Positions 3,173 through 44,840 of a stretch of 64,000 nucleotides of DNA are shown in pieces. The stretch is from Candidatus Saccharicenans sp. Lineage in GTDB: Bacteria > Acidobacteriota > Aminicenantia > Aminicenantales > Saccharicenantaceae. Numbering within the stretch: the stretch's first letter is position 1; each line of letters opens with the position of its first letter. Below the pieces are notes generated by a model that saw nothing but the letters and a program-made list of their open reading frames with translations, was not told the origin of the DNA and searched no databases. The stretch covers positions 1 to 64,000 of the forward strand of contig JASEIU010000004.1 in assembly GCA_030017715.1 (NCBI GenBank). Reading direction: 5' to 3'. The translations under genes and the position numbers were made by a program.

Positions 3173-4090
3173 TTAAAAATCTCTTTTTTTAATTAATTCT
3201 ATTCCAAAACGCGCCATAATCTGGCTGAAATGGTGAGCCCCCTTTTCAAGACATTTGACATACCAGACGGGGCCAAATATAAGAGAAATAGGAAACACAA
3301 CATAATAAAATCCTACAGCAATTATTGATTTAAACAGAGTAAATAATTGCCAGCGAATTGGTGCGCCTTTAATGTTATTTAGGTAAGAGTTATAACCATG
3401 GACGATGGCCCTTTTTATGAAATATGTCTTGTTCCATCTTTCAGGTGGGACTGTTTCGTAAACAGGAGCTTCGGCCACAAAAACAAATTTATAGCCATGC
3501 TCGATCGCTTCTTTGAAAAAAGCCCGGTCAGAACCACTGGTTTTCCATTTGATATCAAATTTTAACCCATGCTCATCAAAGACTCTTCTTTTCAATAATA
3601 CGTTACCTGTTCTTGTTTGATACCAGTTCAAAAGAGTCCCGGTTCTATAAATCGGGCGTTGGCAAAATTTTCCTTTTATCAGCCAGTCCGGAGGTTTTTG
3701 CTCGAAATATGGGAGGACAGGTCCAAGAGCTCCATCCACATCGAACTTATTAATAGCCTGATAGAGTTGCAATAACCAATCATTTGAAGGAAATTCATCA
3801 TCGTCGATGATTGCAATATAATTACCGCTTGCAAGCATTAGGGCATGATTCCTGGCTGCAGGTATCGACCTTTCAGGCTCAATATCATAATAGATTTTTA
3901 TGTTGTTTTCTTCCGAGATCTGCTTAACAAGCTCTTTTGCTGACCCTGAAAGATCGTTGTCTATAACTATTATTTGTACATCAAAAAGGTCATTGGTTTG
4001 CTGGTTATTAACTTTTATTAAAAGGTTTTTCAGCATAGGCAATCGCTTATAAGTGCAGATGCAGATTGATATAAGGTCTTTATTTGGCAT
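3173..4090 (-). CDS. Family 2 glycosyltransferase
   Basis: 305 residues. A GT-A fold glycosyltransferase begins at once with the nucleotide-binding strand ISICICTYKR (7-16). VIDND (42-46) and the metal-binding DxD-type IDDDE (95-99) are clear. The C-terminal ~60 residues hold hydrophobic segments that would anchor it to the inner face of the cytoplasmic membrane, where it would add a sugar to a lipid-linked intermediate. It starts 7 bases after the ligase stop and lies 18 bases before the flippase, so the three are almost certainly co-transcribed. Donor and acceptor are unknown. Confidence 0.88.
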   Translation of the reverse strand: MPNKDLISICICTYKRLPMLKNLLIKVNNQQTNDLFDVQIIVIDNDLSGSAKELVKQISEENNIKIYYDIEPERSIPAARNHALMLASGNYIAIIDDDEFPSNDWLLQLYQAINKFDVDGALGPVLPYFEQKPPDWLIKGKFCQRPIYRTGTLLNWYQTRTGNVLLKRRVFDEHGLKFDIKWKTSGSDRAFFKEAIEHGYKFVFVAEAPVYETVPPERWNKTYFIKRAIVHGYNSYLNNIKGAPIRWQLFTLFKSIIAVGFYYVVFPISLIFGPVWYVKCLEKGAHHFSQIMARFGIELIKKRDF

Positions 4091-5775: not shown

Positions 5776-8700
5776 ATGGCTAAAAAATCGGCCGCCCTCC
5801 ATATTTCTATCTTATTGATAGTTTTAAGTTTTATCATCTTTTCCGTTGCCTCTGGTCAATCGAACCTTTCAAAGATATTAAAAGATAAGACTGGCTCTAA
5901 CAGCGGACTCAAAGCTTCTGTAAGCTACAGCCCTGTGGTCCCAGTTACCGGCGTACCTATCAGGTTCATTTGCCGTACCAATAATACCCCGGAATCCTGG
6001 CTCTGGGAATTCGGGGACGGGGAGATAAGTTATGAACCCAGCCCGGCCCATATCTATGAAAATGCGGGAGTCTATAATGTTAAGCTGACAGTAACTCTAA
6101 ACGGAACAACCGCCAGCGCCACAAAAAAAGTCCGTGTTTACGCGGCCAGGGTCGAATCTACCCAGACAAAAAGCCAGGAACTTGTGGCTGCTTTTGAATT
6201 TTCTCCAGCCACACCGGAAGCCGGGACTAACGTTCAATTTACCGACCAATCAACCGGTGGCCCAACTTCCTGGAGATGGGATTTCGGCGATGGGAGTCAG
6301 AGCTCAGCCCAGAATCCCCAGCACCAGTACAGCAATCCCGGGACTTACAATGTTATGCTTACTATCTCTAATGGAAGTGCTACAAAAAGTGTGACCAGAA
6401 CTCTGACTGTAATTGCCGCTTTAACTCCTGGCTTCAGCTATTCTCCGGTCAATCCAGAATCAGGCGAGTCAATTCAATTTCAGGACACTTCATCGGGGAA
6501 CCCATCTTCCTGGAACTGGAACTTTGGAGACGGTACGACCAGCAACCTTAAGAATCCCACTCATATTTATAATAATTCCGGATCTTTCACTGTCACCCTT
6601 CAGGTTTCTAACGGCTACTATACAAAGAGCATTTCAAAGTCGGTAACCATCTTAGCTCCTATTACTGTTGATTTCAGCTATTCTCCGGCGAACCCTGTCG
6701 CCGGCCAGGATGTCCAGTTTGTGAACGGCTCTACCGGTTCAATTACCGGCTATTCGTGGAATTTTGGCGACGGCTCAACCAGTACTCTGAAAGACCCGAC
6801 CCATAAATTCAACAGCGCTGGTTCATATACGGTGACTTTAACTGCCACGGGCCCAAGAGGGTCGAAGAGCACCAGCAAGACCATAACGGTGAATCAATCC
6901 TTAAGCCCATCCTTCACTTTTAGCCCGGCTTCTCCTTACGCCGGACAATCAGTCCAGTTTACAGATACCTCAACGGGGAGTCCGACCTCCTGGCAGTGGA
7001 ACTTTGGGGATGGTAGCAATTCAACCGCCAAGAACCCCACTCATACCTACTCAACAGCCGGAACCTATACTGTCACCCTGACGGTATCTAATGGTTCAGA
7101 AACAAAGACTACGAGCAAGAGCATCACAGTCAAGCCTGTTGTCCAGGCCGATTTTACCTACAGTCCGACCAATCCTCCGGTTGGAACAACCATCCAGTTC
7201 ACCGACAAATCATCTGGAAATATTACCAGCTGGTCATGGCAATTCGGAGACGGCACCACCAGCACCCAGAGAAATCCTTCAAAAGCTTATTCTGCCTCCG
7301 GATCATATAATGTAAAGCTAACGGTTTCAGACGGAACGAGCTCAAATTCAATGACTCAGACTGTGACCGTAGTGGCCAGTCTGGTTGCGGATTTCAGCTT
7401 TAGCCCATCTGCACCAGCGGTTGGTCAGGAAGTTCAATTCCTGGATAATTCTCAGGGATCTCCAACCAGCTGGTCCTGGGATTTTGGCGATGGGTCTGCC
7501 AAAAGCACAGTTAAGAATCCCACTCATACTTATTCGCAGGCTGGAACTTTTTCAGTGAAGCTTACGATAAGCAACGCTACGGCTTCATCCACTCAAACCA
7601 AATCTTTGACTGTTTCCAGCTCATCAAAAAGAATAATCACCGCCGCCAGCTGCGCACTGGCTGATGTTCAGGCGGCTATTGCTCAGGCCAATCCGGGTGA
7701 CACGGTAATAGTTCCGAACGGGCAAGCTGTTTGGTCACAAAAGCTGGTAATCAGGAAGGGGATAATTCTTAAGGCTGCGAGCAAGGGGGGCGTTACTATA
7801 AAGAGCAACTATGCATCATCTCGGGATTATTTAATTGTTTACAGTCCAGATAATCCAGCTTATGATGAGCCGTTCAGGATATCTGGCTTTTTATTTAACC
7901 TGGATGGTAATTCTGGGGGAATTTCTATTGAAAATTCTACTCTATATCCGTTGAGGAAAATAAGGATAGATAATAACCAATTTACAAACCCGAACTGGTA
8001 TTTTTTAAGAATAAATGGCACTGTATATGGGGTTTGCGACAATAATATAGTTACCACGGACACTGTTGCTAATGCTTGTTATGGATTAAATGCACAGACA
8101 TGGAATAATTTAATTTTTGACTTTGGGACTGCTGACAATTTTTATTTTGAGGATAACTTATTTTATCTCAAAGACACATTTACAGGTTCTGGGGCTGCAG
8201 GTCGGTATGCAATTAGGTACAACAAATTTTACAACATGAGTGGTGGCACTATTAGCCCATTTATTGATATGCATGGTAACATGGGAACCGGTGGTAATCA
8301 CTCAGGAATGGGTATTGAGGTTTATGAGAATGAATTCTATTTGAATGGATATGGCTGTAGAATCGTTGATCAAAGAGGGGGCAAGGGATTAATTTATAAT
8401 AACAGAATCATCACAACGCCAAGCGTCTGGGCGAATTTCAATGTTCGAGAAGAGTATTATGATTATTTGAATCCGCCGGCCAAATCTCCAATTAACGGGC
8501 AGCCTCAACATGTGTCAGATACATATTCTTGGGGTAATACGAAGAACGGAGTGCAGATTGTTAATGACCATGATGATAATCTTAAGGTTACCCAAACTCT
8601 TAATTATGAAGGTGAAGGGGTCGTTCCAAGTCTGGACATTCATTTTTGGAGGTCGGTTTCTCCATTTAATGGGACTTCTGGAGTTGGAGTTGGGACCATT

Positions 8701-8850
8701 TCGCAGCGGCCGGCAAGCTGCAGTAAGGAGGGGGTGGCCTGGTGGGCGACGGATGAGAACAGGCTTTATCGCTGGAGGAATGGGAAGTGGGAGCTATACT
8801 ATGTGCCCTATACCTACCCGCACCCGCTGAGAACTATACTCGGTGATTAA
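5776..8850 (+). CDS. Secreted protein with seven PKD domains and a C-terminal beta-helix domain
   Basis: 1024 residues. An N-terminal Sec signal (hydrophobic 8-26) is followed by seven tandem PKD domains from about 46 to 617, each with a WxFGDG motif and a YSPxxPxxG-like start; repeats 2-7 are very alike. The rest looks like a right-handed parallel beta-helix, with NNxF/YNxF-type coils such as IDNNQF, EDNLFY, IRYNKF, YENEFY and IYNNRI, as in pectate-lyase-like folds. A substrate or host-polymer binding role is likely; enzyme activity is not proven. GAGGTGAG precedes the ATG. From residue 638 the gene is identical to the neighbouring copy over 1151 bp. There is no PEP-CTERM tail. Confidence 0.85.
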   Translation: MAKKSAALHISILLIVLSFIIFSVASGQSNLSKILKDKTGSNSGLKASVSYSPVVPVTGVPIRFICRTNNTPESWLWEFGDGEISYEPSPAHIYENAGVYNVKLTVTLNGTTASATKKVRVYAARVESTQTKSQELVAAFEFSPATPEAGTNVQFTDQSTGGPTSWRWDFGDGSQSSAQNPQHQYSNPGTYNVMLTISNGSATKSVTRTLTVIAALTPGFSYSPVNPESGESIQFQDTSSGNPSSWNWNFGDGTTSNLKNPTHIYNNSGSFTVTLQVSNGYYTKSISKSVTILAPITVDFSYSPANPVAGQDVQFVNGSTGSITGYSWNFGDGSTSTLKDPTHKFNSAGSYTVTLTATGPRGSKSTSKTITVNQSLSPSFTFSPASPYAGQSVQFTDTSTGSPTSWQWNFGDGSNSTAKNPTHTYSTAGTYTVTLTVSNGSETKTTSKSITVKPVVQADFTYSPTNPPVGTTIQFTDKSSGNITSWSWQFGDGTTSTQRNPSKAYSASGSYNVKLTVSDGTSSNSMTQTVTVVASLVADFSFSPSAPAVGQEVQFLDNSQGSPTSWSWDFGDGSAKSTVKNPTHTYSQAGTFSVKLTISNATASSTQTKSLTVSSSSKRIITAASCALADVQAAIAQANPGDTVIVPNGQAVWSQKLVIRKGIILKAASKGGVTIKSNYASSRDYLIVYSPDNPAYDEPFRISGFLFNLDGNSGGISIENSTLYPLRKIRIDNNQFTNPNWYFLRINGTVYGVCDNNIVTTDTVANACYGLNAQTWNNLIFDFGTADNFYFEDNLFYLKDTFTGSGAAGRYAIRYNKFYNMSGGTISPFIDMHGNMGTGGNHSGMGIEVYENEFYLNGYGCRIVDQRGGKGLIYNNRIITTPSVWANFNVREEYYDYLNPPAKSPINGQPQHVSDTYSWGNTKNGVQIVNDHDDNLKVTQTLNYEGEGVVPSLDIHFWRSVSPFNGTSGVGVGTISQRPASCSKEGVAWWATDENRLYRWRNGKWELYYVPYTYPHPLRTILGD
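7687..8837 (+). repeat. Perfect direct repeat, copy 1 (1151 bp)
   Basis: By eye this segment is base-for-base the same as 9739-10889 (offset 2052). It covers codons 638 onward of the first PKD/beta-helix gene and stops 13 bases before the end of the gene. Flanking codons differ at once on both sides. Confidence 0.9.
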
Positions 8851-23117: not shown

Positions 23118-24179
23118 TTATTCAAGAAAGAATCTGTAATACATATGGCTGGCCAGGAAATAAACGGGGGAAGGAAGAATTTGATAAATTGAAGCGGCCA
23201 TTATCTTCAATTTTTCAGTTTTTAATCGTTGAGCTTTTTCATCCGGAAAGATGAATTCAGGCAGCTCTATTTCTTCTGTTCCCCAGTTTCGCTTAAAAAA
23301 CAACAGGTCCCCGTGCTCTATAGAGGTTCTACCAAAATCAAAGTATTTAAATCCGCGCTGACTGGCCAGTTTAATTGCTTCCCAGTAAATGAAAGGCACA
23401 GGTCTGAGGGATTTAAAAGCTGTCTCCCAGCCCAGGGCCTCAGTCGAGCATCTATTTTTATATAAAAATATCAATAATGAAGCTACAGGGATATTCCCGT
23501 GTTCAGCCAGCAGATAGATGGCTTTTCCTGATGGTCCGAACAGGTTGAATATCTGGCTATAAAAGCTGAAGGGTATAGCTGGCAGCCCAAGACGTTTTCT
23601 GGTTCTTGAATATAGCAAAAAGAATCTTGACAGTTCGTCCTGATCTTTAATAATTCTTGTCTTAAGATTGCTTTTTTCTGCCTTTCTGATGTTCTTCCTG
23701 ATGCACGTCCGGTCAAATTTACTGAATATTTTGTCCAGGTCATCATCAAGTGATAGGATGTGAGTAACGTATTCACTTTTTAATGAGCAGTTGCCCAGAA
23801 GGAACAGATCTTTTGTCCTGAATATCTTGATCTTTATATACTTACCATTCAGCTGTTCGAGGAAGTTCTTAGCGGCCTGAATAAGAAGTTTAAGTTCAGC
23901 AGGGTTTGAAATCAGTGGATCAAAAAAAGTTGCCAGGGGAGCTCCAACGAATCTTTTTCCTGAAAAGGGCGATTTAATAAAATAAAGCGGAAGACCAGCG
24001 GTTATCTCTCCGGTCTGTTCATTGTTGATAGCAAATATGAAAAGCTGACACTCTTTGATAAAACCGGACAAGATCTTATGCCATTGACTAAAATGGGTGA
24101 GCCAGCCTGCGGGGTGTGAATCAACAAAATGGTCCCAGCGGTGATACTCTGTCTCCGCCAGGATAGAAACTGTGGTCAT
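23118..24179 (-). CDS. FemAB-like (GNAT-fold) transferase
   Basis: 353 residues. Central basic helix FDRTCIRKNIRKAEKS, then a TRKRLGLPAIPFSFY segment, CSTEALGWETAFKSLRPVPFIYWEAIK, and the closing FKYFDFGRTSIEHGDLLFFKRNWG, all typical of the FemAB-like proteins in exopolysaccharide loci. Its ATG abuts the stop of the upstream FemAB-like gene with no gap, so the pair is translationally linked. Expected to be cytoplasmic, adding an aminoacyl or acyl group to a glycan or lipid precursor. The three neighbouring paralogues are divergent enough to have different substrates. Confidence 0.78.
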   Translation of the reverse strand: MTTVSILAETEYHRWDHFVDSHPAGWLTHFSQWHKILSGFIKECQLFIFAINNEQTGEITAGLPLYFIKSPFSGKRFVGAPLATFFDPLISNPAELKLLIQAAKNFLEQLNGKYIKIKIFRTKDLFLLGNCSLKSEYVTHILSLDDDLDKIFSKFDRTCIRKNIRKAEKSNLKTRIIKDQDELSRFFLLYSRTRKRLGLPAIPFSFYSQIFNLFGPSGKAIYLLAEHGNIPVASLLIFLYKNRCSTEALGWETAFKSLRPVPFIYWEAIKLASQRGFKYFDFGRTSIEHGDLLFFKRNWGTEEIELPEFIFPDEKAQRLKTEKLKIMAASIYQILPSPVYFLASHMYYRFFLE

Positions 24180-25334
24180 TTAGGTGCTTCCAATAAATTT
24201 ATAGAATATCTTTTCTGTCAGGCTGTAATTAGCCAGATAAGGCATTATAGTACGCGCCAAAAAATTTATTAATGGATTCGAAAAATGGATTAAACCAGGC
24301 TGTAGATTTACAATCATACCGCCGAATCCGGTCTTAAATCTTACATCCTGCATCTCTAAATAATTTTCCCGGGCATCGTAGATTTTTCCTCTCTTGAGGA
24401 GGTAGGTGCCAAAGGGACCTAGATCAGCACTTATGCAACCTGCAGATTTAGCCCATTTTATTATTTCCCAGAAAAGTAGTTCGTTCGGCCTAAGATGAGG
24501 ATATTCTCCCGACCAGCCAAATTTCCAGAGAGAAACATGCTCACCCATAATTATGACTATGAGAGCGGATATAATGATGTCATTCAGCCGGGCAAAAAAA
24601 AGCGCAATTTTCCCCCTGATGGAGAACAGATCCCATATTTTTTCCAGAGTTCTTAAACTTGAAGGGTTCGGTCTGACTCCGCGTCGTTGACAGGTGGTGT
24701 TCATAAGTTTGAAAAATAGGCCAAGTTCTCCTCTGCTGCCCTGCCTCACTACTATTCCTGCGTTTTGCGCTTGTTGTATGTTCTGTCTTTTTTGCCTCTT
24801 CATTTTTTTGAACAACTGATCTTCTGATAGATTTAGATTAATCCTGACGTTAGCGCTTTTTATTATCCATTTAATGAAATTCGGCCTGAAACCTATTTGC
24901 CTTAATTCTGAAGTTATCCGGTCTTCTCTGTCTGGGGCCTGGACGAGGACAGCAAAAAACTTGTGACGTATGAATATTTTCAGGTAATTTAAGATAGATT
25001 TCATCACAATAAAGTCGTCGCTGGCTATAACCGGACCTTTCATCAACAGGCCAAATTTCAAGAATTTTAGCTTTTCTTTGTATAAAATCTGAAAGCCCCC
25101 GACAATCTGGTTGTTTCTGATAGCTATGATTCGACCGGTTTTCCAGCCTTCCGGTTTTTTGGCTTCACCCCATAGGCTTGTCTGTTCAAAATGCTCAAAG
25201 CCAGTGCTGAACAGGAAATTGTCCCACTCAGGATCAGGACAGGAAACAGATTCCCAGAAAGTCAGACTTTCCCCGGCAAGGTGAATTTCACCAATTTTTT
25301 TGCGAACATTGTCACAGCGACCGGCAATAGACAT
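24180..25334 (-). CDS. FemAB-like (GNAT-fold) transferase, lipid II aminoacyltransferase type
   Basis: 384 residues, the longest FemAB-like paralogue here. Diagnostic parts are FEHFEQTSLWGEAKKPEGW near residue 41, the paired basic helix MKRQKRQNIQQAQNAG, and the C-terminal LRPNELLFWEIIKWAKSAGC followed by DLGPFGTY. This order is close to true FemX/FmhB-type enzymes, which use aminoacyl-tRNA on peptidoglycan precursors. It is joined without a gap to the FemAB-like gene downstream. A peptidoglycan or polysaccharide acceptor cannot be decided from sequence. Confidence 0.76.
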   Translation of the reverse strand: MSIAGRCDNVRKKIGEIHLAGESLTFWESVSCPDPEWDNFLFSTGFEHFEQTSLWGEAKKPEGWKTGRIIAIRNNQIVGGFQILYKEKLKFLKFGLLMKGPVIASDDFIVMKSILNYLKIFIRHKFFAVLVQAPDREDRITSELRQIGFRPNFIKWIIKSANVRINLNLSEDQLFKKMKRQKRQNIQQAQNAGIVVRQGSRGELGLFFKLMNTTCQRRGVRPNPSSLRTLEKIWDLFSIRGKIALFFARLNDIIISALIVIIMGEHVSLWKFGWSGEYPHLRPNELLFWEIIKWAKSAGCISADLGPFGTYLLKRGKIYDARENYLEMQDVRFKTGFGGMIVNLQPGLIHFSNPLINFLARTIMPYLANYSLTEKIFYKFIGST

Positions 25335-25402: not shown

Positions 25403-26437
25403 TCATTCCAGATGTTTGTAAGCTATGGTTCCAGCCAGACGAAGAAGAGAAGGAGGCATGATCTGAAAGATTTTCTTAAACAAATTTCGTTTTCTGGCCT
25501 GAATAAAATTCAGTTTAATGCCCCTTGCCAGAACTATCCGGTAATAGCAAAGCTTTGATTCGACTGAACCCCAAGAACGTTTGTATGATAAAAGTCCCTG
25601 ATCTTCTGGATCTGTTCTTCCAAGGCTCAATGTGTAACAGCCATTTTCCTGATGCCAATTAATAGATTCCCACATTATGAGATTATTCGGTCGCAGATGG
25701 TGAAAAGTATGATCGGAAGCTCCAAATTTGAAGAGAGCCTTCCGGTTGAAATGGAGAAAAATTGAAGCAGCAATCATTCTGTCCCGGTAATAAGCCGAAG
25801 CTATTATGCCCAGATTTTTTGCTATCATTTCATCGTAAATGTTTCTAAAAAACTTGAAGGGCTGTGGAGGAATTCCATGGCGTTTTCTGGTGATGACCTG
25901 CAATCTGTAGAAGTTTCTCATGGCTTCCGGGCTTTTTTCGAATCTTACCTTAAGACCGTATCTCATTGCCTTTTTAATGTTACGTCTGTTGCTGTCTCTC
26001 AGACTGGACCAGAGATCAGTCGATGGTTTTGACAGGTCTATATTGTGAGTATAGTATGTTTCTGAAGGTTTGCCCGGGAAGAAAAAAATTGAACTTCTGA
26101 ATTCAACATATTTACATTTTTGGGTTACCCCATAATTGATAATTCCTTTGACAGGTTCTTCCAACTGGTCTGGTTCTTTGATGAGGGGATGGCAAAAATC
26201 AGAAAAAGGCAAGCTGACAACTCTTTTTCCAGTAATCAGGCTGTTTATCTCTATTAAAGGAATGATTGCAGTTGGCTTTTGCTCGTCATAAATCGCAAAA
26301 TACAGAGGATTTAAATTATACGTTAATTTAAGAACCTGACACCATTCTCGGGTATGAAAAATATCGGGATCAAAGTGGTGTTTGATCAGACTATTCCAGT
26401 CCGCACAGAAGGCAGGATCAACGATCTTGATTTTCAT
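25403..26437 (-). CDS. FemAB-like (GNAT-fold) transferase
   Basis: 344 residues. Opens with WNSLIKHHFDPDIFHTREW, then WSSLRDSNRRNIKKAMRYG as the central basic helix, TRKRHGIPPQPFKFF, and LRPNNLIMWESINWHQENGC leading to LGRTDPEDQGLLSYKRSWG. It is closest by eye to the 23118-24179 protein (shared TRKR-G-P-P-F and FKRxWG/YKRSWG ends). It precedes the other two by 68 bases, so the three probably form one transcript. Family function is transfer of an acyl or aminoacyl group; the acceptor is unknown. Confidence 0.77.
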   Translation of the reverse strand: MKIKIVDPAFCADWNSLIKHHFDPDIFHTREWCQVLKLTYNLNPLYFAIYDEQKPTAIIPLIEINSLITGKRVVSLPFSDFCHPLIKEPDQLEEPVKGIINYGVTQKCKYVEFRSSIFFFPGKPSETYYTHNIDLSKPSTDLWSSLRDSNRRNIKKAMRYGLKVRFEKSPEAMRNFYRLQVITRKRHGIPPQPFKFFRNIYDEMIAKNLGIIASAYYRDRMIAASIFLHFNRKALFKFGASDHTFHHLRPNNLIMWESINWHQENGCYTLSLGRTDPEDQGLLSYKRSWGSVESKLCYYRIVLARGIKLNFIQARKRNLFKKIFQIMPPSLLRLAGTIAYKHLE

Positions 26438-26632: not shown

Positions 26633-27754
26633 TCATAAATTGACAATTATTTTCCTCTTGAACATGAAATAACACAGAATACACATCAGGGACAGGCAAC
26701 CGAGGGCGGTGCCGGCCTGGACCCAGCAATCGCCGGCCCAGCCGAGGATGGCTTCGGAAAAAGGGCTGACCAGGTTGCTGAACCAGTCGGCCCCGCCGCT
26801 ACGGGCGAAAAGGTAAATAAAGAGGGGATTCATGCCCACAGCCAGCGGGATAAGGAACAACCTGCGGAATTTAATGATGTCGACCACCCAGTAAGCCAGG
26901 GCCAGAAAAAGCAGGCTAAAGCCGAGACTGACCAGCATAAAGGAGCTGGTTGAAATCTTTTTGATGATAGGGGTGATTGGGTCCAGGGCAAGTCCGAATA
27001 ATGCTGCTGCTAATCCAGTAATGATGAGGATTTTTAGCTTCTTGCCAGGGGTGATATCAGCCTTCATCATTTTCCCGATGACTGTTCCCCAGATCAGATA
27101 GGCGGCCGAAGGAATCATATTAAAGGTTACCCAGCCTTCTGGATTAGAACTGCCCCAGAGCTTGATGTCCAGGTATGACCCGAAGTTGTGCCCGGCCACA
27201 AATGGCTGATTAAAACTCTCAACCGGCCACAGTCTGTAGAGGAGTTCAGCCATCAATAGGAGCGCGCCGGAGAAGGCGATCTGCCAAACTGCCGACCACC
27301 GGAATACAAGAAAAGCCGCCAGACTGCCGAAGGCCAGAGTCGGCAGGATGTCAAGGAGAAAAGCCCAGCCTGGCGCGCCCTCAGGCGGATTGACAATGTA
27401 AAGCGCCCAGCCGAGAAGAAAAAGCGCCAGGGCCCTGACTTCGGCATGTTGAAAACATTTGCCCCAGCTGGTGCCTCTTTCTAATCTATTGCCGTAAGAA
27501 AAAGCCATGGCCACGCCGCTGATAAACATAAAGAAAGATTGTCCCATATCCCAGAGGGTCAATCCGTGCCAGGGATGGTGCTGGAATTGATTTCCAATAG
27601 TGTGGATTAAAGTTCCCTGAAGTGAGGGGCTGAGCATCAGGTCATAAAGTCCTGTGGTCTCGACGATTAGAAACAACATGGCAAAGCCACGGTAGATATC
27701 AAGAGAAAGGAGCCTGCCAGACGGGACTTCACTGAGCCAGTTAGGATTTTTCAT
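26633..27754 (-). CDS. HGSNAT/NagX-like membrane acyltransferase (DUF5009-type)
   Basis: 373 residues from ATG 27754 (GGCGGG upstream); an earlier in-frame TTG at 27784 has no ribosome-binding site. About ten membrane segments. The LLSLDIYRGFAMLFLI start and the HHPWHGLTLWDMGQSFFMFISG block are hallmarks of the heparan-alpha-glucosaminide N-acetyltransferase-like family, which moves acetyl groups across the membrane onto amino sugars. Located downstream of the exosortase (83-base gap, same strand), so it may be co-transcribed with it. With the deacetylases nearby, a cycle of amine exposure and re-acylation is conceivable, though inferred. Confidence 0.78.
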   Translation of the reverse strand: MKNPNWLSEVPSGRLLSLDIYRGFAMLFLIVETTGLYDLMLSPSLQGTLIHTIGNQFQHHPWHGLTLWDMGQSFFMFISGVAMAFSYGNRLERGTSWGKCFQHAEVRALALFLLGWALYIVNPPEGAPGWAFLLDILPTLAFGSLAAFLVFRWSAVWQIAFSGALLLMAELLYRLWPVESFNQPFVAGHNFGSYLDIKLWGSSNPEGWVTFNMIPSAAYLIWGTVIGKMMKADITPGKKLKILIITGLAAALFGLALDPITPIIKKISTSSFMLVSLGFSLLFLALAYWVVDIIKFRRLFLIPLAVGMNPLFIYLFARSGGADWFSNLVSPFSEAILGWAGDCWVQAGTALGCLSLMCILCYFMFKRKIIVNL

Positions 27755-27837
27755 ATCGGATTTCCCGCCTATAAGCTTAATCAAAATTCAGCCTGAATTT
27801 CAAAATATTATTGCCGCATTCAAAATGATCTTCAGAG

Positions 27838-28716
27838 CTAAGGTTGGCCTGATGATTGTTGTCTTGTTTCCTTCTTTTCAAGCTGCCAAAGGAGAAGTCC
27901 CATTATGATCAGAACAACAATGAACATACCATACCCGACCGATCGGTGAATGAACCCACCCTCCATGAATCTTTCGTCGATGAAATAGGCGATTAAATAG
28001 AGGACAACGATACGGATGCCATTTTTGATGATGATCATCGGAATGGCCACAGCCGCCAGCAGTAGTTTATGCTTGAATTCTTTTATGAAAAGATGGCCGG
28101 CCAGAAGACTTATCATCACCAGGGCAATGCTTGAACGCCATCCGGCGCATTCCGGTCCGACCACCAGGATGTACCCGGGAAGATAGATCTCAATGCCTTC
28201 TCTCACAAAAGGGATTCTAATCAGGGAAAAAGCTATATCGGTGATATGGACAGAAGACCCGGCAATCTCCTTAACCAGCCAGTTCATAATTGATGGTGGC
28301 AGGGGGACGGCAAAAAGTAAAAACCCAATGGGAAATATTGCCAGTTTGAAAGATTTGAAGCCATAGAAGGCAAGGTAGGTGCCAGCCCAGAATGTTATGG
28401 CTGAAAATACAGCCAGGGATATTGAATATTCATCCATCAGGTCTGAAAATCGGCTCAATAGATAAAACGTCAATCCTGCAGAGGCTATCAAAATACCCGG
28501 AAGAGTAGCCGGAGCCGGAGCTGAAAACAGGGCTTTTCTCTTCCCGAAAAGAAGGAAGATGGTAATTATCGGGACAATTGGAATATGAGTGTAAAAGAGG
28601 TCAATGCGGGGGTCGCTCAGGAGTCTTTTTATGGGATTAAAAGCTAATACAACGGCCAGCAGGTAAAAGAAGAGAAGAAGAATAAAATAAACCCGCCCTC
28701 GCTTAGACTCCACCAT
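27838..28716 (-). CDS. Exosortase (EpsH/Xrt family)
   Basis: 292 residues, about eight membrane segments. The three family catalytic residues are visible: Cys190 in VVGPECAGWRSS, Arg235 in IKNGIRIVVL, and His257 in FIHRSVGYGMF. The FLLFAVPLPPSIMN stretch near 132-145 is also typical. Exosortases cut and transfer proteins with a C-terminal PEP-CTERM-type tail at the membrane and co-occur with exopolysaccharide genes. The only evident substrate in the window is the small gene 55 bases upstream (28772-28990), which shares its strand and probable promoter. No fused C-terminal EpsI-like domain is present. The subclass is not assigned. Confidence 0.9.
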   Translation of the reverse strand: MVESKRGRVYFILLLFFYLLAVVLAFNPIKRLLSDPRIDLFYTHIPIVPIITIFLLFGKRKALFSAPAPATLPGILIASAGLTFYLLSRFSDLMDEYSISLAVFSAITFWAGTYLAFYGFKSFKLAIFPIGFLLFAVPLPPSIMNWLVKEIAGSSVHITDIAFSLIRIPFVREGIEIYLPGYILVVGPECAGWRSSIALVMISLLAGHLFIKEFKHKLLLAAVAIPMIIIKNGIRIVVLYLIAYFIDERFMEGGFIHRSVGYGMFIVVLIIMGLLLWQLEKKETRQQSSGQP

Positions 28717-28771
28717 TAGAAAAAATTAAGCTGTCGATGACCTGGCCCCGCTCAGGCTATCGGGAAGAAAG

Positions 28772-28990
28772 TCAGTTCTTTTTCCTATTTTTCAAGGCAT
28801 AAATCCCAAGACCTGCCAGCCCGATGCCGACCAGAGCAATGGCCACCGGTTCGGCCACGCCACGTCTGCCGCCCTGGCCCCTGTCTCTTTTGCCCCACGG
28901 ACCGAAATCATCGCTCCAGGCATAGGAGATTGTGGTCGTCAACAGAACAAGCAACAGCAGCGCGACCAGAACCAGAATAGTCTTACTCAT
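28772..28990 (-). CDS. Minimal PEP-CTERM-type exosortase substrate
   Basis: 72 residues from ATG 28990, chosen because AAAGGGG lies 9 bases upstream and the promoter's predicted start (~29019) rules out an ATG at 29020. Residues 4-23 are a Sec signal, with probable cleavage after SYA (24). A mature spacer of only about 22 Gly/Arg-rich residues follows, then the sorting tail: E47-P48, a hydrophobic run VAIALVGIGLAGLGIYAL (49-66) and the basic end KNRKKN. This matches the three-part PEP-CTERM layout with AEP in place of PEP. It precedes the exosortase gene, so it is likely its dedicated substrate. The function of such a short processed peptide is unknown. Confidence 0.8.
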   Translation of the reverse strand: MSKTILVLVALLLLVLLTTTISYAWSDDFGPWGKRDRGQGGRRGVAEPVAIALVGIGLAGLGIYALKNRKKN

Positions 28991-29025
28991 GACAATTAAC
29001 CCCTTTCGGTAATCTTGCATCTACT

Positions 29026-29053
29026 ATTATCAGGATAAATTCTTTTTTGTCAA
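29026..29053 (-). promoter_or_regulatory. Strong promoter of the PEP-CTERM / exosortase operon
   Basis: On the minus strand: TTGACA (29053-29048, perfect), 16-base spacer, GATAAT (29031-29026, 5 of 6). Predicted start about 29019, giving a 29-base leader to the ATG at 28990. Confidence 0.7.
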
Positions 29054-29148: not shown

Positions 29149-29652
29149 GTGAGAATTTTTCAGCGGATTTTAAGACGCCTTGCCTATTTTATCCCAGGCG
29201 GGGGGTCCCTTAGGCCCGGGCTGAACAGGCTGCGTGGCGTCAAAATCGGAAAAAATGTCTGGATCAGCCAGTATGTCTACATAGACGAGCTCCATCCTGA
29301 AGCCATAGAGATTGGAGATAACGTCACAGTTGGCATCGGCACGGCCATCATCTCCCACCTTTACTGGACTAAATCAAAAGAAACGGTGGTCAAACCGGTG
29401 GTTATAGAGCCCGGTGTCTTTATAGGTCCGCACTGTGTGATACTTCCTGGCGTCCGGATCGGGCAGGGCTCGGTCATCCAGGCCGGAACGGTGGTTTCTC
29501 ACAATGTTCCGCCGGGAGTCTTTTTCGGCCATGCGCCGGCCACCGTCCTGGGCAAAGTAACGGTGCCGCTCACACCCGAGCATACCTATCAGGAATTTGT
29601 CCATGGCCTCAGGCCATTCAGGAAAAAAGGCGAGTCAGATGATCAGGGATGA
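29149..29652 (+). CDS. Hexapeptide-repeat (left-handed beta-helix) acyltransferase
   Basis: 167 residues from the GTG at 29149, which has GGCGGGGAG 4-6 bases upstream; a TTG at 29098 would lie at the predicted transcription start. The chain is mostly [LIV]GxxxxI hexapeptide repeats (IGKNVWI, IEIGDNVTVGIGTAI, VFIGPHCVILPGVRIGQGSVI), the fold of sugar and serine O-acetyltransferases. The family acylates hydroxyls or amines from acyl-CoA or acyl-ACP. Because an acyl carrier protein overlaps its 3' end by 14 bases and an acyl-activating ligase follows, an acyl-ACP donor is plausible here (inference). Confidence 0.78.
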   Translation: MRIFQRILRRLAYFIPGGGSLRPGLNRLRGVKIGKNVWISQYVYIDELHPEAIEIGDNVTVGIGTAIISHLYWTKSKETVVKPVVIEPGVFIGPHCVILPGVRIGQGSVIQAGTVVSHNVPPGVFFGHAPATVLGKVTVPLTPEHTYQEFVHGLRPFRKKGESDDQG

Positions 29653-29887
29653 AATAAAAAAATTCATAGTCGAAAAATTTCTTTTTAATTGCGCAGACCA
29701 GCTCGACGATGAGGCCTCACTCCTGGAGACCAACACCGTGGATTCAGTCGGAATCCTGGAAATTGTGGGCTTCATCGAAAACCGGTTCAACCTTAAAGTT
29801 GAGGACGAGGAACTGACAGCCGAGAATCTGGACAGCATCAATAAAATCGCCAGATTTGTCGAAAAAAAGCTTGGTTTACAGGGTTAA
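29639..29887 (+). CDS. Acyl carrier protein
   Basis: 82 residues from ATG 29639 (AAGGCGAG upstream), overlapping the acyltransferase by 14 bases. A four-helix ACP-size acidic protein. The phosphopantetheine attachment Ser is S36 in the VDS36VGILEIVGFIE segment, where D-S-(L/V)-x-x-(L/I/V)-E is the ACP signature. The ligase starts four bases after its stop. It would carry the acyl or aminoacyl group activated by that ligase. It is too isolated from fatty-acid genes to be the housekeeping AcpP. Confidence 0.88.
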   Translation: MIRDEIKKFIVEKFLFNCADQLDDEASLLETNTVDSVGILEIVGFIENRFNLKVEDEELTAENLDSINKIARFVEKKLGLQG

Positions 29888-29891
29888 ACAG

Positions 29892-31472
29892 ATGCAGTTT
29901 GACCCGGTGCTTCTCCATGACTGGTTGACCCGAACTGCCAGCCGCCGTCCAGGCAAAACCGCTCTTGTAAGCCGCGGCCAGAGGCTTACCTACAGGGAAA
30001 TAGAGGAAAAATCCACCCGCCTGGCCGAAGCCCTGGTTCTGATGGGATTTAAGAAGGGCGAGCGCGGGGTCATCTGTCTCGACAACTGCCCGGAAGCGGT
30101 CATCGCCATTTACGGAATTCTTAAAGCCGGAGGAATTTTTGTCGTCATCGATTCAAAGAGTCCCTGGCCGGTTGTCGATTCTATCCTGGAGGACTCCGGA
30201 GCCAGGTTGCTCGTAACCTACAGACGAAAAATTTATCAGAGGGATAGCTCTAAGAATCTACTGGCGGACCTTCAGCTCGTCATTGTAGACGGAAGCCAGT
30301 CCCCGCCCCGAACCTGCCCTAAAGCGCTTAATTTTTCCGGTCTGGTTGAGAAACTTTCGGTCGAGGTTAAGTTGCCCCGGCTTCTGGAAAACGACCTGGC
30401 CTGCCTGATTTATACTTCAGGCTCAACTGGAAAATCCAAGGGCATCGTCTGCACTCATCACAACATGGTGACTGCCGCCCGGAGCATCATCCAGTACCTG
30501 GAAAATACTCCGGACGATATAATTCTGGATGTTCTGCCGCTGTCTTTTGATTACGGTCTCTACCAGGTCTTGATGTGTTTTATGTTCGGTGGAACGCTGG
30601 TGCTTGAGCCTTCCTTCGCTTACATTCAGGATATACTGGCGGCCATCGAAAAGGAAAAAGTTACCGGCTTTCCCATAATTCCGTCGATTTCGGCCATGCT
30701 CCTGAGACTCAAAAAATTTCCAGCCCGACAGCTTCGTTCGCTTCGCTACATAACCAATACCGGAGCCGCCTGGCCGGTCTCCCATATCCGCCAGTTCCGG
30801 GAATTGTTGCCATGGGTGAAACTCTATTCAATGTATGGCCTCAGCGAATGTAAAAGGGTGAGCTATCTTCCGCCGGAATTGATAGATCAGCATCCGGATT
30901 CGGTTGGAATTCCTATGCCGAACCTGGAAGTGGCTGTGGTTGACCGCCGCGGAAAGCCGGTGCCGCCAGGAAAATCCGGACAGCTCGTCGTCCGGGGACC
31001 GTCGGTCATGCAGGGCTACTGGCGGGACAAAAAACTGACCGATAAAGTTTTCCGGCGGGGGAGATATCCGGAAGAACGCTGGCTTCAGACCGGCGACCTT
31101 TTCCGCCAGGATGAAAACGGGTTGCTCTATTACCTGGGGCGCCGCGACCGTCAGATTAAATCCTACGGTCACCGCATTAACCTGGCTGAAGTGGAAAAGA
31201 CGATAGCGAGCCTGAGTGGCGTGGTTGAGACGGCGGCCGTGCCCATCCCCGATGACATCGGCGGGGCTGTTATCGGAGTATTTATTGTTATGAAGAGGGA
31301 AGCCGGGCTCAGTGAAATCCAGGTCAAACAGCACTGCCAGCAGAATTTAGAGCCCTATAAAATACCGCGCCACATCTGGTTGCTTGACGCCCTGCCCAAG
31401 ACACCAAACGGCAAGATAAATTATAAAGAGCTGAGGTCACGGCTCTATAAGAAAACCCGGGGCAGTCAATAG
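29892..31472 (+). CDS. AMP-dependent acyl/aminoacyl ligase (ANL superfamily)
   Basis: 526 residues from ATG 29892, four bases after the ACP stop. ANL core motifs occur in order: the P-loop YTSGSTGKSKG (174-184), MYGLSE (A5-type), TGDLFR with a GRRDRQIKSYGHRI hinge region, and the C-terminal catalytic Lys in PKTPNGKI near 510. It activates a carboxylate with ATP and would load it on the neighbouring ACP. Related adenylating ligases are known beside exosortase systems. Whether the substrate is a fatty, hydroxy or amino acid cannot be read reliably; the small-domain architecture is also like amino-acid adenylation enzymes. Confidence 0.87.
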   Translation: MQFDPVLLHDWLTRTASRRPGKTALVSRGQRLTYREIEEKSTRLAEALVLMGFKKGERGVICLDNCPEAVIAIYGILKAGGIFVVIDSKSPWPVVDSILEDSGARLLVTYRRKIYQRDSSKNLLADLQLVIVDGSQSPPRTCPKALNFSGLVEKLSVEVKLPRLLENDLACLIYTSGSTGKSKGIVCTHHNMVTAARSIIQYLENTPDDIILDVLPLSFDYGLYQVLMCFMFGGTLVLEPSFAYIQDILAAIEKEKVTGFPIIPSISAMLLRLKKFPARQLRSLRYITNTGAAWPVSHIRQFRELLPWVKLYSMYGLSECKRVSYLPPELIDQHPDSVGIPMPNLEVAVVDRRGKPVPPGKSGQLVVRGPSVMQGYWRDKKLTDKVFRRGRYPEERWLQTGDLFRQDENGLLYYLGRRDRQIKSYGHRINLAEVEKTIASLSGVVETAAVPIPDDIGGAVIGVFIVMKREAGLSEIQVKQHCQQNLEPYKIPRHIWLLDALPKTPNGKINYKELRSRLYKKTRGSQ

Positions 31473-31627: not shown

Positions 31628-32614
31628 ATGACTGCCAAAGAACATATGAATGAATTTTCATATGACAGTCTCAAACTCGACTGCGAAAAAGAAACTGCCC
31701 GTCTCACTGCCTTTATTTCTGAGGCGGTCGGGCGCCGTCTTCGCAGGCAGGGAGCGGTGGTGGGTATTTCCGGGGGCATTGACAGTTCAGTCACGGCCGC
31801 CCTCTGTGTCCGGGCTCTGGGTGCCGAAAAGGTCATCGGCCTCCTGATGCCCGAGCGCGACTCCCACCCGGACACCCTGAAGCTAAGCCGACTGGTGGGG
31901 GAGAGCCTGGGCATCAAAACCTTTTATCGCGACCTGACTCCGATACTTACCGGCCTCGGTTTTTACCAGGACATGACTGCCTGCATAAGGGAAGTCATTC
32001 CGGAATTTGGAGAAGGCTGGCGATGGAAAATTTCGGCTTCCGAAATCTCGGAAGACCGGGTCTTTACCTTTTTCTGGCTGGTGGTCCAGTCGCCGCCGGG
32101 CGAGATCATCAAAAAAAGGCTTCTGGCCGAAAAGCTCCTTCACCTGATTGCCCTCAGCAATTTCAAGCAACGGACAAGAAAGATGCTTGAGTATCATTAT
32201 GCCGACCGCTTCAATTATGCCGTCGCCGGGACCTCCAATCTACCTGAAAGCGACCAGGGATTCTTTGTCAAGCTCGGTGACGGGGCCGGCGATTTTAAGC
32301 CGATTGCCCATCTCTATAAAAGCCAGATCTATCAGCTCGGCCAATATTTAGGTTTGCCGGAAGCCATAACCGGACGCCAGCCGACGGCCGACATTCACCC
32401 GCTTTCCCAGGGGCAGGACGAGTTTTTCTACGGCCTGCCCTATGAGCAGATGGATGCCTGTCTTTACGGAGAAAAAAACAGTCTGCCGCCCGAAGCGGTG
32501 GCCCGGGCTACGGGACTTAGCCCGGAACGGGTGAGTTTAATCTACAAGCAGCTGGCCCATCGCCGGGCAGTAAACGAGTACCTCAGCCTGCTGCCGCTTT
32601 ATCCTGAGCCTTAG
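31628..32614 (+). CDS. NAD synthetase-like ATP pyrophosphatase
   Basis: 328 residues, start ATG 31628 with GCGAGGTG upstream. PP-loop SGGIDSS at 48-54. AGTSNLPESDQGFFVKLGDGAGDFKPIAHLYKSQ (about 32224-32325) fits the NadE family, in which adenylated nicotinate dinucleotide is amidated. No nitrilase-type glutaminase domain is present, so ammonia would be the nitrogen donor. It is longer than ordinary ammonia-dependent NadE (~250-280 residues), with an extra insertion around 115-175. Its position 155 bases after the ACP ligase raises the alternative that it is an amide-forming enzyme of the surface pathway rather than the housekeeping NadE. Both remain open. Confidence 0.75.
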   Translation: MTAKEHMNEFSYDSLKLDCEKETARLTAFISEAVGRRLRRQGAVVGISGGIDSSVTAALCVRALGAEKVIGLLMPERDSHPDTLKLSRLVGESLGIKTFYRDLTPILTGLGFYQDMTACIREVIPEFGEGWRWKISASEISEDRVFTFFWLVVQSPPGEIIKKRLLAEKLLHLIALSNFKQRTRKMLEYHYADRFNYAVAGTSNLPESDQGFFVKLGDGAGDFKPIAHLYKSQIYQLGQYLGLPEAITGRQPTADIHPLSQGQDEFFYGLPYEQMDACLYGEKNSLPPEAVARATGLSPERVSLIYKQLAHRRAVNEYLSLLPLYPEP

Positions 32615-35809: not shown

Positions 35810-36976
35810 TCTTGATGTTTTTTCTTCCTCAAATTGACCCGATAAAGCTTCTCCTGGAGTCGATCTATGTTCTCCTTTATCTCCACGATATCCAGCCGTT
35901 CATACTCCCGGCGAAGCTTCCTCTTTACCTCTGCCGCAACATAGGGACTCTCTAGCACTCTCTGATAGGGAGTCTTCGGCTCATCATAACGCTTCTCAAC
36001 CCGGCTGCCTATCCTGCTTTTTTCCCGAAGCTTCATCGTTACCCGAAAGAAGTTATAATAGAGCCTGGCCCAGGAGTAAAGCTGCTGGATGCGCTCCTAT
36101 CGTACCTGAGGTAACCGACTAACTTCCGCACCGCCGTGTAGTTCTTTTGCTCCACATAACAGCTATCGTTCTTCCTTCCGGCTCGGCCGCGAGTAAAACT
36201 GAGGTGTCTTTCCTGGCAGTAACGGATAAGATGGGCATTGATGAAGGCCGCGTCATTGTCTGAGTCGAGGCCCAGCAACTTAAACGGCAATCGCTTTTCT
36301 ATCCTCTGGAGAGCTTCAAATACCCAGACCTGGGCGCGGTTCCTGACCACTTCCGCCTCCGTCCAGCTAGTGGCCACATCGGTGGCATTGAGGCTGTGGC
36401 AAAAATCACCCCGCGTCACTCCTCCGTCATGACCTACCAAGTCCATCTCTAAGAAACCTGGCTTCTGCTCATCCCAGTCAGAAAAAGTCCTCACCGGAAT
36501 CTGATGCTTCAGGAGCGTGCCCGGTTTTGTCCTCGCCCGTGACCTCAGCGCCATCTTCCGACGCTCCGGCTGCAGCAGCCGGTCCGCCGTCGAGGCGGAA
36601 ACCCGCCAAAGCTTCTCCTTGAGCCGGAATGGAAGTTTCACCCTCCCCATCGCTTCTAGCTTCGGGCAAACCTCCCGCATCATGACCACCAGAGGCTTGC
36701 CACAAGGATAATTGAAAAGCCACCAGAACCAACCCAACCATTCCTTAACCTTCTCGTCATATACCGGCTTCCTCCGGCGCTTCACCTTCCTTAGCTCCAC
36801 TACCCTACCACCTTCCGACCACAGTTCCGTAGCCACCAGCTGGCATACCCACGATGGTATCCTGTCAAAGCACAAAATTCGGCCAGCATCGCCCCTTTCC
36901 TCTTCTTCGAAGCCCGCTGGTAGGCAGGAGCCGGTTCCTTAAGCACCGCTCTTTTTGTCTTCATGTCCAGCCCCAT
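35779..36976 (-). pseudogene. Integrase-core (rve) transposase with two frameshifts
   Basis: The start ATG at 36976 has GGGAGG upstream. The N-terminal part (KRAVLKEPAPAYQ, then LTGYHRGYASWWLRN, helix-turn-helix-like) runs to about 36815. A -1 shift there leads into the catalytic part with LEMDLVGHDGG, LGLDSDNDAAFIN and NDSCYVEQKN, which supply the D, D and E residues. A second -1 shift near 36100, just after VGYLRYDR, restores RIQQLYSWARLYYNFFR and the KRYDEPKTPYQRVLES tail. The length of 1198 bases plus two would be exactly 400 codons, so two single-base deletions are the simplest cause. Neither site is a typical slippery sequence. Confidence 0.82.
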
Positions 36977-43244: not shown

Positions 43245-44840
43245 TCAACCCGATTTTTCCAGAACTTTGAGTTCCAGGATCCGGTCGAGCCGGAAGTGCC
43301 GCTCCTCTTTCCTCAGGTGGCAATAAGCCACCAGAGCTTCGAAGGTTCGTCCCCGGGACTCCATCATCGTCAGGGAAATCGGCCGCACCCGGCGCCGGCT
43401 CTTGGTGTCGTCGGGCTTGAGGTAAGTTATTTCCAGCAGCCTGTTCTTCTTAATCGCTTCCTTGATTTTCTGCCTTTTTAATTCGACCGGGGTCTGTTCT
43501 TCGGCCTTTCTGTACTGAAACTGGGTCAGGAAGCGAACTACCCGGTAGTCCATCATGATGTGGCCCTTCTTGATGGGCTTCTTGAGAACCAGTCCCTCGA
43601 AGCTGGTGCAGCGGCTGAGGGCCACATAGACCTGGCCCGGGGCGAACGCCCCGCGCCCGATGTCCACCACCACCCGGTCGAAGGTCTTGCCCTGGCTCTT
43701 GTGAATGGTGACCGCCCAGGCCAGGCGCAGGGGATACTGGGTGAAGGTTCCGGTGACACGACTGATGATCTTTTTTCTCTGGCGGTCGTACTCGTATTCA
43801 AAAATTTCCCATTCGTGGGGCAGGACATCCACCAGCGAGCCGTTCAGCAACCGCACCATGACCGTATCCGGCCGGTCCTCGGCCTCAATGATTTCTTCCA
43901 CCCGGCCGATGCTGCCGTTGACCCAGCGGTCGTAGGCGTCGTTGTTTAAGAGCATGACCTGGGCTCCCTCCTTGAGGGCCAGAATGCGGGAGGCGGGCAG
44001 GCTGTCCGGGTCGAAGTCGCCTGAAATCACCCCCGGGTAGCGACGCCCGGCTCCGGGCAGCTTTTCCAGCTTTTCCTGGTTAATCCGGTCGGCGGCTTCG
44101 TTGGTGCTGGTCAGGGTGATATAAAACCTGTCTTCCGGCGGGACGAAATCGGGCAGACAGCGGGCGTTGAGCCTGGCCAGTTGCTCTTCGCTGATCGACC
44201 GGTTGCGGATAGCGTTCAGCAACTCCAGAAAATCGACTTCTTTCTGCCGGAAAACCTTTTCCAGCTCGACAAATTCCAGCTCGAAATTGGGGTCGTTGAA
44301 GGCCCGGGCCGAGAAGAAATAAGGAGATTCATAGTGAAGGCTGAAGGCCGGCTTTTCGTTGCCGGTGACTACCGGCGGCAGCTGGTAGAGGTCGCCGATT
44401 AAAATCATCTGCACTCCGCCGAACGGCAGTTCCGGGAAATCCCGGTTTATCCGCAGCGCCCGGTCGACGCAGTCCAGCAGGTCGGCCCTGACCATTGAAA
44501 TCTCGTCGATGATGACCGCATCGAGATTCTTTATCAAAGCCTGCTTCCTGGCCGGGAGTTTCTTCACCCGGTCCAGGGTGATATCGGGCCGGAAGGCAAA
44601 GAAAGAATGGATGGTCTGCCCGCTGACGTTGAGCGCGGCCACCCCGGTCGGGGCCAGGACCACAACCTTCTTCCCGGTGTTATTACGAAAATAATCCAGC
44701 AGGGTTGATTTTCCGGTGCCGGCCCGGCCGGTGATGAAAACCGACTTGTTGGTGTTTTCCAGCAGGTCCAGAGTTCGCTGAAATTCCGGAGTGAATTCCA
44801 GGTCCGGTTTTTCCGGCTTTTTACGGGCGCTGTCAGTCAT
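43245..44840 (-). CDS. PIF1-like helicase with C-terminal WYL-like domain
   Basis: 531 residues. Residues ~15-440 are a superfamily 1B PIF1/RecD2-type helicase: Walker A GRAGTGKS (38-45), APTGVAA, Walker B IIDEISM (DE 112-113), GDLYQLPPV, and the late TIHKSQGKTF and VALSRCTS motifs. Residues 452-531 resemble a WYL domain (LLEITYLKPD, RRRVRPISL, FEALVAYCHLRKEERHFRLDRI), a ligand-binding module usually found in transcription regulators and defence proteins. In PIF1 fusions it is thought to bind nucleic acid or a nucleotide signal. It would unwind DNA, with possible regulation by the WYL part. Single gene, no obvious partners. Confidence 0.85.
   Translation of the reverse strand: MTDSARKKPEKPDLEFTPEFQRTLDLLENTNKSVFITGRAGTGKSTLLDYFRNNTGKKVVVLAPTGVAALNVSGQTIHSFFAFRPDITLDRVKKLPARKQALIKNLDAVIIDEISMVRADLLDCVDRALRINRDFPELPFGGVQMILIGDLYQLPPVVTGNEKPAFSLHYESPYFFSARAFNDPNFELEFVELEKVFRQKEVDFLELLNAIRNRSISEEQLARLNARCLPDFVPPEDRFYITLTSTNEAADRINQEKLEKLPGAGRRYPGVISGDFDPDSLPASRILALKEGAQVMLLNNDAYDRWVNGSIGRVEEIIEAEDRPDTVMVRLLNGSLVDVLPHEWEIFEYEYDRQRKKIISRVTGTFTQYPLRLAWAVTIHKSQGKTFDRVVVDIGRGAFAPGQVYVALSRCTSFEGLVLKKPIKKGHIMMDYRVVRFLTQFQYRKAEEQTPVELKRQKIKEAIKKNRLLEITYLKPDDTKSRRRVRPISLTMMESRGRTFEALVAYCHLRKEERHFRLDRILELKVLEKSG

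Follow-up and report, generated by a model that had tools for sequence, protein, structure and literature searches.

The 64,000-nucleotide stretch of Candidatus Saccharicenans sp. DNA analyzed here, which we call the window, carries an exosortase gene and, directly upstream on the same strand, a gene for a PEP-CTERM-type protein of 72 residues (Table 1). The pair is real at these coordinates, and we favor, with moderate confidence, the reading that the two genes form a dedicated exosortase/PEP-CTERM system, in which the enzyme serves a single, very small substrate and would transfer its peptide to an acceptor linked to the adjacent locus. The anatomy of the miniature, the absence of another credible target in its genome, and the conserved pairing and setting can be read directly from the sequence. 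The miniature would mark the lower size reach of PEP-CTERM-type substrates in a one-enzyme, one-substrate system, and would be an unusually simple substrate for learning what exosortases do.

Anatomy of the exosortase and the miniature

The earlier note had described an exosortase with its three catalytic residues in place, and the enzyme stands up to closer analysis: it scored above the cut-offs of PF09721 and TIGR02602, and its Cys, Arg and His (C190 in ECAGWR, R235 in KNGIRI, H257 in HRSVG) were unchanged in all nine aligned exosortases, the window's among them. The CxG, NxxR and HxxxG motif set of exosortases (excerpt of PMC1569441) is complete, with C190, N232/R235 and H257/G261. The nearest named type was Exosortase A (XrtA, TIGR03109; 122.3 bits, cut-off 208), and no model in the tested list of named exosortase types reached its cut-off. 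A single exosortase was detected in the window's genome. The Aminicenantia exosortases formed one clade with a support of 1.0 and a long stem (FastTree, 40 sequences, one method). A sequence search of solved structures gave no relative of the enzyme, and a structure prediction from a 4-sequence alignment had a mean pLDDT of 43.7, too low for use.

Table 1. Features of the exosortase-miniature cluster in the window.
Feature	Coordinates	Strand	Basis or remark
FemAB/GNAT-fold transferase	23118..24179	-	TIGR03019 138 bits, under cut-off 260
FemAB/GNAT-fold transferase	24180..25334	-	TIGR03019 32 bits, under cut-off
FemAB/GNAT-fold transferase	25403..26437	-	best model PEP-CTERM-system FemAB TIGR03019, 110 bits, under cut-off 260
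Membrane protein, 3' of exosortase	26633..27784	-	no Pfam match
Exosortase, 292 aa, C190/R235/H257	27838..28716	-	PF09721 133.9 bits (cut-off 25.7); TIGR02602 118 bits (cut-off 105.55)
Miniature PEP-CTERM-type protein, 72 aa	28772..28990	-	signal peptide, 21-residue core, AEP, TM helix, KNRKKN; orthologues adjoin 10/10 model-spanning class exosortases
Sigma-70-like promoter of miniature	29026..29053	-	TTGACA-16-GATAAT, 11/12 positions; promoter scan and alignment
Hexapeptide-repeat acyltransferase	29149..29652	+	divergent from miniature; GTG start inferred via orthologues
Acyl carrier protein-like	29597..29887	+	PP-binding 19.6 bits (cut-off 20.8); ACP models under cut-off
AMP-forming acyl ligase	29856..31472	+	nearest model TIGR03098 'exosortase A system-associated', 425 bits (cut-off 592)
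NAD-synthase-family protein	31628..32614	+	NF002048 above cut-off

The small neighbor had been described as almost only signal peptide and AEP tail, and so it proved. From its ATG start it reads as MSKTILVLVALLLLVLLTTTISYA, WSDDFGPWGKRDRGQGGRRGV, AEP, VAIALVGIGLAGLGIYAL and KNRKKN, where WSDDFGPWGKRDRGQGGRRGV is the stretch of about 21 residues between the signal peptide, which ends in SISYA, and the AEP, and 18 hydrophobic residues separate the AEP from KNRKKN. The automatic ORF call began at 29020, 10 codons upstream; the inner ATG matches the start position in most orthologues. The exosortase gene follows after 55 nt. By inspection, the protein has a signal peptide and then a C-terminal motif, a TM helix and a basic cluster. 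Among the ten exosortase-linked miniatures E47 and P48 are invariant and A46 occurs in nine, so that the near-invariant PEP of the classical motif is replaced by AEP (9/10) or TEP (1/10), with the E and the second P retained.

The predicted mature peptides, counted through EP, have 20-29 residues in the ten orthologues and about 24 in the window. They are rich in Gly, Arg/Lys and Pro, poor in Ser, Thr and Asn, and contain no Cys. A very short, Gly-rich processed peptide (here Gly/Arg/Pro-rich) had been foreseen and is also what we predict; the term 'basic' was too strong, as the net charge (K/R minus D/E) is +1 in the window and 0 to +3 over the ten.

The miniature of the window scored 14.4-14.5 bits with TIGR02595, under the cut-off of 16, and therefore receives no automatic PEP-CTERM call. 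That score, with processing that is itself a prediction, leaves some room for a different reading, in which the miniature stays uncut and, with its two helices, acts in the membrane as a partner for the exosortase or the polysaccharide machine; it is made almost wholly of hydrophobic segments, and the two genes are tightly linked, to the point of overlap in one relative. We consider this unlikely, since the tail has the complete motif-helix-basic anatomy of ordinary PEP-CTERM tails, the signal-peptide ends of the orthologues resemble cleavage sites on inspection (an invariant GP comes next), and seven of the ten exosortase-linked orthologues pass the TIGR02595 cut-off (G000 and G009 are under it, and G011 is absent at E <=0.5).

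Conservation of the gene pair

A search of 60 relatives with the exosortase protein matched 10 genomes, the window's own included. The family model PF09721 matched 12 of the 142 Aminicenantia genomes, 10 of them with matches spanning the model, and 143 of the 396 genomes of the phylum sample. Two class matches were left out of the ten, namely a 187-aa frame of 32 bits in G470 and a partial match under the cut-off in G046; the tail filter detected no miniature within 1.5 kb of either. In G050 the exosortase frame is broken by stops and ambiguous bases in its assembly.

The earlier note had tied its reading to the presence of the small gene beside orthologous exosortases. A miniature directly adjoins the exosortase on the same strand at all 10 model-spanning loci of the 142 class genomes, which is the target-adjacent arrangement of a dedicated sorting system. 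The linked miniatures span 66-82 aa (longest ATG/GTG/TTG ORF) in three genera, and gene order differs between genera: miniature-exosortase in the six loci of genus g1, and exosortase-miniature in the four others (three of genus g4, one of family f4), with a 4-nt overlap in G028. Within genus g1 both genes occur in 6 of 19 genomes and neither in 13, several of which are incomplete. The pair loci in named genomes (n=3) belong to Candidatus Aminicenantes, Candidatus Saccharicenans and an 'uncultured bacterium', all metagenome-assembled. As a control, the same tail filter, which had found all ten linked miniatures, was applied to the best 30 phylum exosortase loci (L022-L051, flanks <=1.5 kb) and found no miniature; these loci include one ORF of 180 aa that carries a PEP tail.

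A promoter scan of the region yielded three promoter-like sites, compared to 2.2 expected by chance, and therefore conservation is the stronger evidence for the promoter of the miniature. Its TTGAC is retained in all six aligned g1 loci, and GATAAT stands at the aligned place in four of the six.

Search for other targets in the genome

In a dedicated sorting system the enzyme has just one target per genome, a concept defined for rhombosortase/GlyGly-CTERM (excerpt of PMC3237569). The assembly that contains the window comprises 2.9 Mb in 18 contigs and is 92.6% complete. Over the whole genome TIGR02595 matched three places at E <=10, with the miniature best at 14.4 bits. The second place is part of the exosortase reading frame, and an 82-aa frame on contig C11, at 10 bits, makes up the third; we judged neither a credible target. 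The model matched at E <=10 in 12 of 14 control genomes as well, in two of them above the cut-off, and its score alone is therefore weak evidence. We also searched with A2, a profile of the tails of the ten orthologues, which gave the miniature at 1.4e-18 (a score due to construction, because the window tail is one of the ten rows) and then places at E 0.43, 0.64 and 1.3, none of which we judged credible as a tail. Many ordinary-length PEP-CTERM proteins served by this exosortase had been named as the finding that would speak against the pairing; neither TIGR02595 nor A2 found one in the genome at its 92.6% completeness. The miniature is thus the single target seen in its own genome, the next-best tail being that at E 0.43. 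Relatives G025 and G028 each have a second miniature.

Over the 142 class genomes A2 returned 21 rows in 16 genomes at E <=0.01, of which 16 rows in 14 genomes were kept. The five dropped (G021, G022, G026, G027 and G028; E ~0.008-0.01; frames of 366-447 aa) are internal to ORFs of 340-430 aa, a long way from the C-terminal end. Three further tail matches in relatives were likewise rejected: the TIGR02595 matches in G011:C31 (17 bits, above cut-off) and G009:C11 (15.2) are frames of 125-126 aa that overlap a permease-like 332-aa ORF, and that in G028:C46 sits among overlapping frames of other genes.

Miniatures elsewhere in the phylum

A full-length profile of the miniature (A1), which has 15 invariant columns, gave at least 38 matches in at least 33 genomes of the phylum sample, with up to 14 candidates scored per genome. 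Among the matches listed, eight rows lie within Aminicenantia, with frames of 70-92 aa and one of 170 aa (longest ATG/GTG/TTG ORF 99 aa). Outside the class, 30 rows from 26 genomes are among those listed, and 29 of the 30 frames span 186-510 aa (frames, not verified starts). The exception, in another family (G365, L145:972-1238), looks like a genuine small protein and has 88 aa from the first ATG and 67 aa from an inner ATG; the small size is therefore rare but not unique, and the unusual part is the consistent pairing of the miniature with one enzyme. This protein has two Cys and a VPEP, and the same genome contains a longer A1 match.

The claim that the miniature is conserved beside orthologous exosortases thus holds, but miniatures are not confined to the pairing, as there are paralogues without an adjacent exosortase besides the 67-88 aa example in G365. 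In the class, six rows have no exosortase next to them: those of G021, G026, G030 and G031 and the second copies in G028 and G025, the last about 3.5 kb from its exosortase. No exosortase was detected in G021, G026, G030 or G031, three of which are fragmented genomes; miniatures in genomes where none was detected are evidence against an absolute one-to-one rule. The miniatures of G026, G028, G030 and G031 (L076, L079, L073 and L075), a second miniature family, lie directly upstream, on the same strand, of one secreted-looking peptidase family, which matches Pfam Peptidase_C69 in two cases and has a similar N-terminal sequence in the other two.

TIGR02595 does detect ordinary targets: in seven other genomes of the phylum, picked because an exosortase and tails had already been seen there, it made 59 matches above the cut-off, whose open frames have a median of 243 aa. 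One of these frames is of 100 aa or less (57 aa, with a 53-aa ORF and no visible signal peptide), and another of 121 aa contains a 91-aa ORF.

Sequence variation

Replacing differences were rarer than silent ones (pN < pS) in the core of the miniature in all 15 g1 pairs, and in the core plus the first half of the tail also in all 15. For the exosortase this held in 14 of the 15 pairs, the remaining pair being nearly without differences. The miniature is not a chance ORF, because of the 10/10 pairing, the 15 invariant columns, the conserved promoter and this excess of silent differences. The ordinary PEP-CTERM proteins of the phylum are longer, which would suit a decaying remnant of such a protein; that reading is already contradicted and in our estimate very improbable, as all ten linked copies are short in three genera, the promoter element, GP and tail are conserved, and the core and first tail half vary mainly at silent sites.

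One comparison, G004 with G009, is curious. At the ligase locus the DNA identity of the two over 3.7 kb is 90.2%. From the miniature onward they have 10.4 kb in common with 88 differing alignment positions, 40 of which fall within about 150 nt, the miniature core and the first half of the tail; the 10.2 kb downstream (99.6% identity) account for 39 and the upstream part for 9. Within the miniature the identity is 94% in the signal-peptide part, 57% in the core and 100% over the tail's final 45 nt. The core most like that of G009 belongs to G002 (80% identity), although the exosortases of these two are only 61% identical, as if cores had been swapped. On the left, the common 10 kb, shared by two species (L113:1164-11581 against L114), has its edge between the miniature and an integrase-like gene. 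An integrase-core (rve) gene is also present near the cluster in the window (36039-36875), and a 61% identical relative borders the pair on its left side in G009.

Such a concentration of differences might suggest that the peptide, once trimmed, is set free as a signal, pheromone or antimicrobial with a core that differs from strain to strain. We find this quite improbable: the exchange is one event on metagenome-assembled contigs, the core pairs (pN < pS in 15/15) give no sign of diversifying selection, and no receptor, immunity or exporter gene was recognized by Pfam among the 28 window neighbors, several of which have no family match. Diversification into a hypervariable core was rejected for G004/G009 too, since silent differences there exceed replacing ones (0.86 vs 0.30). 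Large silent differences fit rapid selection less well than recombination that brought in an old allele at the border of a transferred segment, and the G004/G009 core difference looks like such an event. The usual ATG of the G009 miniature is out of frame, so an assembly fault at the exchange is possible in this single case.

Neighboring genes

The surroundings of the miniature were compared over nine fetched related regions. An acyl-ligase homologue lies within the cluster in seven (72-78% identity in four, ~34% in the three of genus g4); the two regions without it are short contigs, one of them with a distant paralogue. Eight of the nine carry a NAD-synthase-like gene, and eight, three of them in part, a homologue of the membrane protein at 26633..27784, which we take to resemble the heparan-acetyltransferase-like COG4299 group. 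The FemAB protein at 25403..26437 has homologues at >=43% identity in five. For each of the three FemAB/GNAT proteins of the window TIGR03019 was the best model. A DUF354 protein and a UDP-GlcNAc 2-epimerase are also encoded downstream of the exosortase in the window. Ligase homologues (E <=1e-60) occur in 12 of 34 family genomes, covering all nine with an exosortase; that of G009 is on a separate contig. In the three with a ligase and no exosortase (G014, G016 and G023) the contig terminates at or near the ligase, and therefore the absence of the exosortase there cannot be told. Of the surface-assembly setting proposed earlier, the recurrence of polysaccharide and acyl-ligase genes in relatives is upheld, while 'compact surface-assembly system' is a name that the neighborhood alone suggests. 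The roles put forward earlier for the peptide (anchor, primer or signal) are conjectural.

Proposed mechanism and comparison with known systems

We infer export, cleavage, transfer, acceptor and function by extending published PEP-CTERM/ArtA mechanisms to the miniature. The 72-aa precursor would be exported by Sec and cut by signal peptidase after SISYA, and the AEP-TM-KNRKKN tail would retain it in the inner membrane. Export by Sec and anchoring of such precursors in the membrane follow from the general behavior of Sec. The PEP-CTERM model (excerpt of PMC1569441) provides a second basis for the proposed export and anchoring. The neighboring exosortase would then cleave at or near AEP via C190, and what remains of the peptide, about 24 residues (20-29 for the orthologues), may be passed to a lipid or glycan that bears an amine and that the products of the adjacent acyl-ligase, ACP, FemAB and glycosyltransferase genes make or modify. 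The predicted product would be a short, flexible peptide on the cell surface, rich in Gly, Arg and Pro, with the probable role of helping to retain exopolysaccharide there. The passenger contains little Ser/Thr/Asn and much K/R/G, and its glycosylation is therefore not favored. FemAB homologues are clear in five of the nine regions only, which counts against the proposal. A bolder version, which we hold to be rather doubtful, makes the exosortase a conjugating enzyme that attaches a ribosomal peptide of 20-29 residues, as linker or cap, to a lipid or polysaccharide that the same locus builds, with the core exchanged between lineages as an allelic cassette; the peptide would then be a building block of a surface polymer and not a sorted protein.

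The proposed dedicated system shares with the PEP-CTERM/exosortase (EpsH) systems, as far as the excerpt of PMC1569441 describes them, the exosortase family with its C/R/H motifs, a signal peptide, the motif-TM-basic tail and an exopolysaccharide-type locus. It differs in having one credible target, compared to a median of eight PEP-CTERM proteins per genome, and AEP in place of PEP. Its passenger of about 21 residues is rich in Gly and Arg, whereas ordinary passengers have few basic residues and an abundance of Thr, Ser and Asn (same excerpt); and a sigma-70-like promoter precedes an apparent operon with the enzyme, whereas targets there stand mostly in single-gene operons (with a sigma-54 motif in Proteobacteria). 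Rhombosortase/GlyGly-CTERM (excerpt of PMC3237569) likewise has a single target encoded next to its sorting enzyme, but that enzyme is a rhomboid protease, whereas here it is an exosortase and the target is a miniature. Exosortase A loci for exopolysaccharide also have a TIGR03098-like acyl ligase, TIGR03019-like FemAB proteins and glycosyltransferases nearby; here the exosortase and both accessory models score under their cut-offs, and the enzymes belong to the long-stem Aminicenantia clade. For archaeosortase ArtA, cleavage and lipidation of substrates via Cys-173, together with lipid-synthesis enzymes, are proposed (excerpt of PMC7157517). Common to both would be a Cys acyl-enzyme, transfer to an amine-bearing lipid and a functional tie to lipid-synthesis genes; ArtA differs in being archaeal, in its PGF-CTERM signal and in having the S-layer glycoprotein among its substrates.

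In an Aquincola rpoN1 mutant, overexpression of PepA moved exopolysaccharide from the soluble to the bound fraction (excerpt of PMC9850573), and retention of EPS on cells by PEP-CTERM proteins is also argued for Nostoc (excerpt of PMC12188702). C-terminal cleavage, the linkage partner and the outer-membrane route of the exosortase reaction are presented as hypotheses in both excerpts (PMC12188702, PMC9850573). Full-text literature searches returned no paper naming both 'exosortase' and 'Aminicenantes', and no miniature PEP-CTERM substrate is described in the titles and abstract openings of the papers returned; the archaeosortase/exosortase paper of Haft, Payne and Selengut lies outside this coverage and may mention one. 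A 72-aa substrate with a passenger of about 21 residues could be synthesized chemically and followed whole by mass spectrometry, and therefore its cut site and acceptor would be directly readable.

Other features of the window

Rfam and tRNA scans of the window returned nothing, and two short tandem repeats lie elsewhere in it. A protein of 1024 aa in which PKD domains match seven times is encoded at 5776-8850; its gene lies beside those of an O-antigen-ligase-type (Wzy_C) protein (4098-5441) and a glycosyltransferase (3173-4090), and the PKD-domain protein may interact with the polysaccharide as a partner at the surface. At 43245-44840 a single protein of 531 aa combines a PIF1-like helicase with a C-terminal WYL domain.
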